NCBI GenBank assembly: GCA_018622495.1 | Contig: CP076021.1 | Location: 124,001 to 188,000 of the forward strand | From: Mycoplasmatota bacterium | Lineage (GTDB): Bacteria; Bacillota_I; Bacilli_A; Acholeplasmatales; Acholeplasmataceae | DNA: 64,000 nucleotides | Reading direction: 5' to 3' | Part shown: piece by piece, positions 35,176-37,590 of the stretch | How the letters are laid out: every line of letters begins with the position of its first letter | Position numbering within the stretch: position 1 is the stretch's first letter | Program-made: the position numbers and the translations under genes | Notes under the pieces: generated by a model | Seen by the model: the letters and a program-made list of their open reading frames with translations, nothing else | What the model was told of the DNA's origin: nothing | Database searches by the model: none

Positions 35176-35892
35176 TTATAATTTAACATTGTGATAGACA
35201 TCTTGAACATCATCTAAGTTATCTAATAAACTCATTAATCTATCATATTTTTCTTTATCTGCTTCGCTTAATTCCGCATCAATCATCGCCATCCACATGA
35301 TTTCATCTGTATCAAATTCTAATTCAGGATATTGATCTAAAAATGCAGTTTTAATCGCATTATAATTTGATGCTTCACTAAGTACAGTAACACCATCTTC
35401 ATCTGCTTCAATTTCATCAGCATCTAAATCATTTAATACTAAAACTTCTAATACTTCTTCTTCAGACAATCCTGGAATTGTAAATACAGCTTGATGATTA
35501 TATTGATGAACCACAGAGCCAGTTACACCAAGTTTACCACCAGTCTTTGTGAAGCAGTTTCTAACTTCAGCAATTGTTCGATTCACGTTATCCGTTAAGC
35601 ATTCAACTATAAATGTTGAACTTCCAGGTCCAAAGCCTTCATAACGGGCTTCGGTATAGTTATCATCACTTCCGCCTTTCGCTTTATCAATAGCTCTTGA
35701 TATAACATCAGCAGTGACTTGTTCTTTTTTCGCTTTTTGAATGATACGTTTTAAGTTAGCGTTCAATTCAGGATCTGGAACACCTGACTTTGCAGCCATA
35801 TAAATTTCTTTTCCATATTTTGCATATAACTTACTTTTAGCAGCTGCAGTTTTTTCCATTGCAACTTTTCTTACTTCATGTGCTCTACCCAT
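35176..35892 (-). CDS. YebC/PmpR family protein (YeeI-type)
   Basis: YebC proteins were named as transcription regulators; recent work shows some act on stalled ribosomes at proline-rich sequences. The 238 residues begin MGRAHEVRKVAMEKTAAAKS, which is the YeeI/YebC2 subgroup rather than the M-A-G-H-S-K-W-type start. NANLKRIIQKAKKEQ and YEGFGPGSSTFIVECLTDN are family motifs. It follows ppa by 18 bases. Confidence 0.92.
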   Translation of the reverse strand: MGRAHEVRKVAMEKTAAAKSKLYAKYGKEIYMAAKSGVPDPELNANLKRIIQKAKKEQVTADVISRAIDKAKGGSDDNYTEARYEGFGPGSSTFIVECLTDNVNRTIAEVRNCFTKTGGKLGVTGSVVHQYNHQAVFTIPGLSEEEVLEVLVLNDLDADEIEADEDGVTVLSEASNYNAIKTAFLDQYPELEFDTDEIMWMAMIDAELSEADKEKYDRLMSLLDNLDDVQDVYHNVKL

Positions 35893-35910: not shown

Positions 35911-36441
35911 TTATTTATTAAATTTTTCATTATATGTTTGTATACATTGTGAAATAATTTTTCTTGCAGATTCTGGACCTTCAACATCCAAGATATATGT
36001 TTTCTTACCTTCAAGTGATTTATACACTTCAAAGAAATGTCCCATTTCAGTTAATAAATGACTTGGAAGTTCACTAATATCTTTATATTGTGTAAGTGAT
36101 GGATCACCAAATGGAATCGCAATAATCTTTTCATCAATTTCATCTGAATCAATCATTTTCATTACGCCAATCGGATATACTTCAACAATACTTAATGGTT
36201 CTATGTCTTCTTGACATAAAACTAAAACATCAAGTGGATCATTATCTCCAGCATATGTTCTAGGAATAAATCCATAATTTGCAGGATAATGCGTTGATGT
36301 AAATAATATACGATCTAAAATAATCATTCCTGTTTCTTTGTCTAATTCATATTTTTTCTTTGAACCTTTAGATATCTCAATACACGCAACAAATTTTTCT
36401 GGTGTAATTCTTTTGGGATTAATGTCGTGCCAAATATTCAT
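35911..36441 (-). CDS. ppa: Inorganic pyrophosphatase (family I)
   Basis: Ppa hydrolyses pyrophosphate and pulls biosynthetic reactions forward. A GTG 12 bases upstream is in frame, but the ATG at 36441 has AAGG 9 bases before it. The 176 residues contain EISKGSKKKYELDKETGMI (about 22-40), NYGFIPRTYAGDNDPLDVLV (about 55-74) with the D-x-D-P-L-D metal site, and later catalytic residues. It is directly downstream of a guanine riboswitch and terminator, an unusual arrangement. Confidence 0.96.
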   Translation of the reverse strand: MNIWHDINPKRITPEKFVACIEISKGSKKKYELDKETGMIILDRILFTSTHYPANYGFIPRTYAGDNDPLDVLVLCQEDIEPLSIVEVYPIGVMKMIDSDEIDEKIIAIPFGDPSLTQYKDISELPSHLLTEMGHFFEVYKSLEGKKTYILDVEGPESARKIISQCIQTYNEKFNK

Positions 36442-36492: not shown

Positions 36493-36520
36493 AAAAAAAC
36501 ACCCCCAAAAGTGGATGCTT
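36493..36520 (-). terminator. Riboswitch terminator in the ppa leader
   Basis: The stem GCATCC / GGGTGT (minus strand) with an 8-base loop is followed by seven T. It lies between the aptamer and ppa. The 5' arm and loop (CCACTTTT) can instead pair with AAGTGG at 36602-36607 just after the aptamer, which would act as an antiterminator. Confidence 0.7.
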
Positions 36521-36608
36521 TTTTCTATAGCAATCGAAAATGTTACTTACCCCTCTTGCCCTTGTTAGTATTTTAACTATCGTTTGGATACGTTATAAAT
36601 CCCACTTC

Positions 36609-36682
36609 ATAATCGTAGTCATGATGTTACGGCACCATGGTAGATACGTCATCACCCCTATTAGATGACTTATACGACAATT
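36609..36682 (-). ncRNA. Guanine-type purine riboswitch aptamer upstream of ppa
   Basis: The minus strand shows the purine-aptamer consensus: P1 5' strand TGTCGTATAAG, P2 loop around AATAGGGG, junction ATCTACC, P3 ATGGTG-CCGTAA-CATCAT, then GACTACGA closing P1. The specificity base is C (GACTA, not GATTA), so guanine or hypoxanthine is expected. The J2/3 base U is retained, unlike 2'-deoxyguanosine riboswitches. A -10 TATAAT (36695-36700) lies just upstream. The stretch between aptamer and terminator (about 36530-36600) holds an AT-rich hairpin (GTTA/TAAC) but nothing else recognised. Confidence 0.88.
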
Positions 36683-36726
36683 AAATACACTTTTATTATA
36701 ACAATTTTTCAAGTATAAAGTAAAGG

Positions 36727-37590
36727 TCAAAAAGATTTAATTTTACTTTCTTGATGTTCTAAATAAAGTTCAAAGGTATTTTCTAATAATCCATAGATTG
36801 TCATTGGCCCGACACCGCCTGGTACAGGTGTAATCATTGAAGCTATTTTGCTAACTTCATCAAAATCAACATCTCCAATTAATTTACCATCAACACGGTT
36901 AATACCGACATCAACAACAATGACACCAGACTTAACCATTTCTTTTGTTAGTATATGAGGTCGCCCGGTTGCAACGACAATAATATCAGCATTTATTGTA
37001 TGTGATTTTAAATCTTTAGTTTTAGAATGACACACTGTAATCGTTGCTCCTCTGTCCATCAACATTCTTGCAACAGGAAAGCCAACAATATTTGATCGAC
37101 CAATAATAGTTGCATTCATACCTTCAACATTAATTTGATAAAAATCTAATAGTCCAATAATTCCTTTTGGTGTAGCTGGATATATCGTTTTCTTGTGCTG
37201 ATATAAATACCCTTGGTTAACCACATGAAATCCATCAGCATCTTTTTCTCTAGAAATTAAATCAATTAAATAATTTTCATCTAAATGTTTAGGTATTGGT
37301 AATTGTAATATCATAGCATCTATTTGTTCATCTTGATTTAATTCTACAATAAGCGTCTCTAGTTCAAATTGACTAACGTCTTCTTTTAAATGATAGAGCT
37401 TATAATCTATACCAACAAGCTCACACGCTTTCTTCTTACCTTTAATATATGAAAGACTTGCTGGGTTATCCCCTACAAGTATAACCGCTAAACTAGGCGA
37501 TTTACTATATTTTTCGGATGCTTTAACTATTTTATTTTTCAATGTTTCTTTTAATGCTTTAGATGCTTTTCTTCCGCTTAATAACATCAT
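36727..37590 (-). CDS. folD: Methylenetetrahydrofolate dehydrogenase/cyclohydrolase FolD
   Basis: FolD converts methylene-THF to formyl-THF through two activities. The 287 residues show PSLAVILVGDNPASLSYIKGK with the catalytic Y-x3-K (about 33-53), MILQLPIPKHLDE, and the NAD(P)-binding IIGRSNIVGFPVARML (about 162-177). The C-terminal PVPGGVGPMTIYGLLENT is diagnostic. It follows fhs in the same direction and precedes the riboswitch leader. Confidence 0.97.
   Translation of the reverse strand: MMLLSGRKASKALKETLKNKIVKASEKYSKSPSLAVILVGDNPASLSYIKGKKKACELVGIDYKLYHLKEDVSQFELETLIVELNQDEQIDAMILQLPIPKHLDENYLIDLISREKDADGFHVVNQGYLYQHKKTIYPATPKGIIGLLDFYQINVEGMNATIIGRSNIVGFPVARMLMDRGATITVCHSKTKDLKSHTINADIIVVATGRPHILTKEMVKSGVIVVDVGINRVDGKLIGDVDFDEVSKIASMITPVPGGVGPMTIYGLLENTFELYLEHQESKIKSF

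Follow-up and report, generated by a model that had tools for sequence, protein, structure and literature searches.

The guanine-I riboswitch of the xpt-pbuX type combines a three-way junction carrying U22, U47, U51 and C74 with a transcription terminator as expression platform, and its affinity for guanine is in the nanomolar range. Positions U22, U51 and C74 are contact positions of guanine riboswitches (PMC9295807), and riboswitches of this class are typically OFF switches (PMC5912903). In the tandem guanine-PRPP riboswitch the guanine aptamer is followed by a second conserved element, and both share one terminator (PMC5912903). The adenine riboswitch of the pbuE type is an ON switch in which the ligand-bound aptamer prevents termination. 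Outside the riboswitches, the G-rich regions of RosA titrate the C-rich small RNA (sRNA) RoxS in B. subtilis (PMC8216469). The leader of the inorganic pyrophosphatase gene ppa described here has features in common with each of these systems.

The window, that is the whole stretch of DNA analyzed (64 kb), contains a purine riboswitch aptamer of the guanine type at positions 36596-36697 of the minus strand, on which all further features of the window are also located. The original prediction had proposed such an aptamer from the letters alone and had suggested an Infernal search on the minus strand. The Rfam model RF00167 recognized it with a covariance score of 64.5 bits, compared to a gathering cut-off of 37 bits (E 5.7e-9 for the whole window), and the predicted coordinates were accurate. 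According to the model alignment the ligand-contact bases U22 (36672), U47 (36646), U51 (36642) and C74 (36618) are kept; U47 is also a contact position of the guanine-I class. The specificity position, for which a C had been claimed, is indeed a C and lies within the motif GACUA. Since the contact bases are intact and the junction carries no insertion, variants for xanthine and 2'-deoxyguanosine are not indicated. The altered J2-3 or J3-1 of xanthine-II, guanine-II and 2'-dG variants (e.g. U51G or insertions) is absent here, since U51 is kept and nothing is inserted. By its sequence the window aptamer is an ordinary guanine-I member, and we infer that it binds guanine.

The promoter scan revealed the elements CTTTAC and TATAAT with an extended -10 TG at positions 36695-36725, between the folD stop and the aptamer. 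The spacing is TTTACT-18-TATAAT, located 3' of the folD stop at 36727. Across 26 aligned ppa leaders both CTTTAC and TATAAT are nearly invariant. An intrinsic terminator (AAAAAAGCATCCAC-TTTT-GGGGGTGTTTTTTT) was found at positions 36524-36493, directly before ppa-yebC as originally proposed. It precedes the ppa ribosome-binding site, gave no match in a simple terminator scan, was recovered by folding and is kept in relatives. The whole leader folds more stably than shuffled sequences (z -3.2). The gene ppa (35911-36441, Shine-Dalgarno sequence AAAAAGGTGA) encodes a family I inorganic pyrophosphatase of 176 amino acids (PF00719, E 1.2e-59). It is followed by a gene of the yebC/TACO1 family (35176-35892, PF01709) as second gene of the unit, and a terminator-like hairpin and a promoter lie between yebC and glyA. 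The Pfam identities of ppa, yebC, folD, fhs and glyA were upheld. No open reading frame of at least 60 amino acids was found between aptamer and ppa, which speaks against an overlooked small gene at this site, a case the original prediction had itself raised.

In its own genome (1.6 Mb) two purine riboswitches are present, one before ppa and one before an NCS2 purine permease gene. At least one purine aptamer was found in 55 of 88 Acholeplasmataceae genomes. NCS2 permease genes lie downstream of about half of the aptamers of the family, and guaB, guaA or purE-like genes downstream of a few (the last two by sequence inspection). The order fhs-folD-aptamer-ppa-yebC(-glyA) is kept in 26 of the 88 genomes, which represent five genera, with 143-183 nt between aptamer end and ppa. 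Thus, the link between aptamer and ppa is not accidental. Covariance model and conserved gene order together uphold the proposed guanine-type aptamer, and a guanine riboswitch very probably controls ppa. The named relatives belong to the Acholeplasmataceae. Among the 80 closest ppa genes, 22 have an aptamer near upstream, starting about 190-270 nt before ppa, and five others have one further upstream, before an NCS2-type permease gene adjoining ppa. Hence, the link between ppa and purines recurs in another form.

Several further arrangements were observed among the relatives. In L150, L153, L160, L162 and L174 a purine riboswitch precedes an NCS2-type permease gene whose immediate downstream neighbour is ppa, with a terminator and a separate promoter in between. 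Strongly diverged purine aptamers with altered J2-3 and P1 lie upstream of ppa in L138 (about 2220-2500) and L118 (about 2230-2470). The latter scores 31.8 bits, the former was not found by the model, and D3-like hairpins (see below) are still there in both leaders. These aptamers are possibly specificity variants or products of decay. By inspection only, purine riboswitches were also seen directly before genes of PhnD-like ABC substrate-binding lipoproteins in three genera (L069, L080 and L085; g2, g7 and g8) and before an old-yellow-enzyme-like oxidoreductase gene (L089-L091), both unusual gene associations.

The stretch between aptamer and terminator is about 70-100 nt longer in ppa leaders than in permease leaders. 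With RNAalifold on a MAFFT alignment only aptamer and terminator emerged, since the alignment of the alternative helices is poor; these helices were therefore tested pairwise by permutation. One alternative structure is common to the minimum free energy folds of almost all of 25 ppa leaders. In this fold the switching strand S (36674-36690), which comprises the 5' strand of P1 and its 5' flank, leaves P1 and pairs with the strand S' (ACGATAGTTAAAATAC, 36568-36583), the rival of the P1 3' strand. P2, P3 and the terminator stay intact. The P1 3' strand and J3-1 are trapped in the hairpin A-A' (36589-36617), which also holds strand B (AAGTGGGAT, 36599-36607), a putative antiterminator that could pair with AUCCACUU of the terminator once P1 has formed. 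When partners were swapped between species, 0 of 10,000 permutations paired as well as the native S-S' and 1 of 10,000 as well as the native A-A', relatedness not being corrected for in either case. For the antiterminator helix B-B' no covariation is seen (1007 of 10,000 permutations as good), as strand B hardly varies. In most relatives the A-A' loop exposes AGGGGUUGUUU as strand B, a mimic of the terminator 3' half which, once A-A' has opened, can pair with the 5' half. The window strand B is altered to AAGUGGGAU against AUCCACUU. In the model its pairing with the terminator is weak and that of the relatives better, and the best P1-forced fold is about 2 kcal/mol more stable than the state with P1 and antiterminator.

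The direction of control was tested with transcripts that end immediately upstream of the terminator 3' arm, in which P1 was forced in order to represent the guanine-bound state. In 15 of 24 ppa leaders forcing P1 gave a gain of more than one pair between B and the terminator, and no leader showed a loss; nine of the 24 showed no ON response. The same test on permease leaders gave the usual OFF pattern in 39 of 44. Computed loss of the antiterminator upon P1 formation, which is typical for OFF switches, was observed in 0/24 ppa leaders versus 39/44 permease leaders. Therefore, we favour an ON switch before ppa and an OFF switch before the permease. In every model of the full-length leader it is the terminator that prevails; consequently, the switch must be kinetic. 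According to this modelling guanine probably turns ppa on, a direction to which the window copy alone points weakly. The original prediction had assumed early termination with guanine; both the alternative structures and the comparison with permease leaders argue for the opposite sign.

The favoured mechanism is as follows. Without guanine, S would pair with S', the P1 3' strand would be trapped in A-A' and B hidden, so that the terminator forms and ppa is off. With guanine, P1 would be held and neither A-A' nor S-S' could form. Free B would then pair with the terminator 5' half, and ppa-yebC would be transcribed. Pyrophosphatase would thus be raised when guanine salvage yields pyrophosphate, as in the Hpt reaction (guanine + PRPP to GMP + PPi), and the same guanine signal would shut the purine permease via an ordinary OFF switch. 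The rationale of pyrophosphate from salvage, which had already been put forward for this locus, is plausible.

Between S' and the terminator lies a further hairpin, D3 (36530-36561), which was absent from the original prediction. Its core at positions 36553-36537 (GGGGTAAGTAACATTTT) is kept in relatives with the consensus AUAGGGGAUARGUARCAUC. The outer stem covaries (0 of 10,000 permutations as good), and the 3' arm is not alignable across leaders. Compared to shuffled sequences the mean z of D3 was -2.0, with -1.0 for the window and +0.6 for the sister genome. Across 160 genomes of the order we counted 25 exact matches to the core 16-mer, versus one for a reversed-pattern control. All matches of the 16-mer lie within the Acholeplasmataceae, either in ppa leaders or at one other, antisense locus. 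A search of D3 from 20 relatives against Rfam gave only chance-level matches at E<=10. Known second aptamers (PRPP, ppGpp and others) were rejected, as no Rfam match was found in the window or in 20 relatives.

The D3 core is complementary over 16-21 nt to an RNA encoded outside the window between topA and tpx, in the own genome at G000:C1:669790-669861 (L216, L222). The locus comprises a promoter (CTTTAC-N17/18-TATAAT-like), followed by a hairpin (GCAUCC/GGAUGC), the single-stranded stretch YUACUUAUCCCCUAUU, a second hairpin (GUGUAC/GUACAC), AAAUCCCCUUAAU and a strong terminator. Both hairpins covary, and the RNA has two C-rich single-stranded regions. It was found once per genome in 40 genomes of the family and also in G148, which belongs to another family of the order. 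Its position is almost always 3' of topA and usually before tpx-ftsY. A search against Rfam at E<=1 gave no match to RsaE/RoxS and, apart from one chance-level match to another family, no match at all. Judged from these features the locus looks like a small-RNA gene, and we infer that it is transcribed.

In all 21 genomes having both partners the computed duplex of D3 and sRNA has an energy between -20 and -36 kcal/mol. Native pairs average -29.3 kcal/mol and swapped genomes -25.8 kcal/mol, with 0 of 20,000 permutations as good (relatedness not corrected for). In three genomes (G027, G040 and G046) the own pairing was no better than that with foreign sRNAs. Among the 31,986 positions scored in the window, D3 is the best match of its own sRNA (-24.0 kcal/mol; next -20.3 kcal/mol), and in 20 of 21 genomes no other site of the sampled sequence scores better than D3. 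The exception is the sister genome G001, in which a permease coding stretch scores above D3. The clearest evidence for the pairing is four lineage-specific compensatory changes. In G023 the sRNA has ACAUAC and D3 GUAAUGU; in G032 the sRNA has GGUGCGAU...CCCCUUU and D3 AAAGGGG...UUGCACC; in G036 and G047 the sRNA has CCCCAAGG and D3 CCUUaGGGG; and in G037 the sRNA has GCUGCUU and D3 AAGCAGC. Four genomes with a ppa riboswitch (G022, G028, G038 and G041) gave only unconvincing hits with the sRNA model (best E 0.17-0.87), and their D3 has diverged, too. The computed complementarity concerns a C-rich region of the sRNA and is kept by compensatory change, as expected for a sponge or target leader. 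From these sequence comparisons the pairing appears highly likely to be real. For the second C-rich region, a pairing with the B loop is no more than suggestive (661 of 10,000 permutations as good).

Blocking D3 had no effect on the computed termination decision. As D3 is located upstream of the terminator, terminated and full-length RNAs both carry it. D3 would present its 16-21 nt site to the C-rich sRNA independently of the guanine switch, and the ppa leader, terminated or full length, would act as target or sponge of the sRNA. As a hypothesis, action on a target (stability, RNase III) or a sponge function suits these results better than direct attenuation does. A further possible pairing of the sRNA (-25.3 kcal/mol) was noted in the sister species, with the early part of the NCS2 permease coding sequence (L003, about 1761-1800); either a codon coincidence or a second sRNA target may underlie it.

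Alternatively, the ppa leader may be an ordinary guanine OFF switch, in which P1 is stabilised, the terminator forms and ppa is an unusual regulon member lowered at plentiful purines. The typical sign of the class and the OFF behaviour of permease leaders from the same genomes in the same model are in line with this explanation, which is nevertheless rather unlikely: an antiterminator dependent on the loss of P1 was found in none of the ppa leaders, the conserved ligand-free fold retains the terminator, and S-S' and A-A' covary. Clearly less probable still is a decaying window copy which has lost switching. Its strand B has diverged and its D3 is weak, but ligand-contact bases, promoter and terminator are all intact, strand B and terminator have changed and are yet complementary, and the D3 indel leaves a pairing of -24 kcal/mol, the best in the window.

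With regard to D3, its conserved purine-rich core in a covarying stem between aptamer and terminator would also suit a second small-molecule aptamer or a protein site, and this layout matches the known guanine-PRPP tandems (PMC5912903). A ligand pocket, however, would not explain why the core matches one conserved RNA gene in antisense and why the two covary in trans, and Rfam returned only chance-level matches (E<=10) in 20 relatives; we regard such a tandem riboswitch as very improbable. Similarly small is the likelihood that the topA-tpx RNA is an attenuated tpx leader instead of a trans-acting sRNA, the complementarity to D3 then reflecting an action of the ppa leader on tpx. The terminator of the RNA indeed lies just upstream of tpx in most genomes; yet a separate promoter-like sequence is found between this terminator and tpx, and the RNA is still present in genomes in which it has another neighbour than tpx (G013-G015, g2 Acholeplasma).

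The best explanation of the whole is a guanine-ON switch of ppa combined with a D3 site for the sRNA, to which we assign a probability of roughly 60%. The wider picture is more tentative and somewhat less probable than its opposite: a guanine-activated leader which is also a conserved partner, as target or sponge, of an undescribed family-wide C-rich sRNA, and through which purine sensing, the removal of pyrophosphate and an sRNA network are connected in the Acholeplasmataceae. If guanine turns ppa on, a class that is described as typically OFF would have a natural ON version, and cells would tune pyrophosphate removal to purine salvage. A single genome may harbour both signs (OFF before the permease, ON before ppa), so that the influence of the expression platform on the sign of a riboswitch could be compared cleanly. 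The site covarying in trans suggests that riboswitch leaders can be small-RNA hubs in small-genome bacteria, and the covariation supplies exact compensatory exchanges. In the literature searched, in which subscription journals were thinly covered, we found no report of a purine riboswitch linked to ppa, of the predicted ON direction, of the sRNA-complementary hairpin or its combination with the switch, or of an Acholeplasma sRNA of this kind. With the purine riboswitch before ppa a known class gains a new gene association, and the leader with riboswitch and sRNA site looks new.

Compared to the known systems, the ppa leader shares junction, contact bases and terminator platform with the guanine-I riboswitch of the xpt-pbuX type. 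It differs in controlling an inorganic pyrophosphatase, in its long platform with a second strand exchange, in its predicted ON instead of OFF direction and in the sRNA-complementary hairpin. Like in the adenine ON switch of the pbuE type, the ligand-bound aptamer is predicted to prevent termination; in contrast to that switch, the ppa leader has C74 for guanine, its terminator does not overlap P1, and a separate antiterminator strand is freed from a hairpin. With the guanine-PRPP tandem it has in common a guanine aptamer followed by a second conserved element before one shared terminator. Here, however, the second element is complementary to a small RNA and has no Rfam-detectable ykkC/PRPP similarity; no match to the ykkC family was found downstream of the guanine aptamer in the window or in 20 relatives. 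The topA-tpx sRNA resembles the C-rich sRNAs RoxS/RsaE in its two C-rich single-stranded regions and its terminal terminator. This likeness is confined to the C-rich layout, as the gene neighbourhood is different and RsaE of Rfam gave no match. By analogy, RosA is the nearest described parallel to the pairing of D3 with the sRNA: in both cases G-rich regions match a C-rich sRNA, but RosA is a stand-alone RNA, whereas the partner here is a riboswitch leader.
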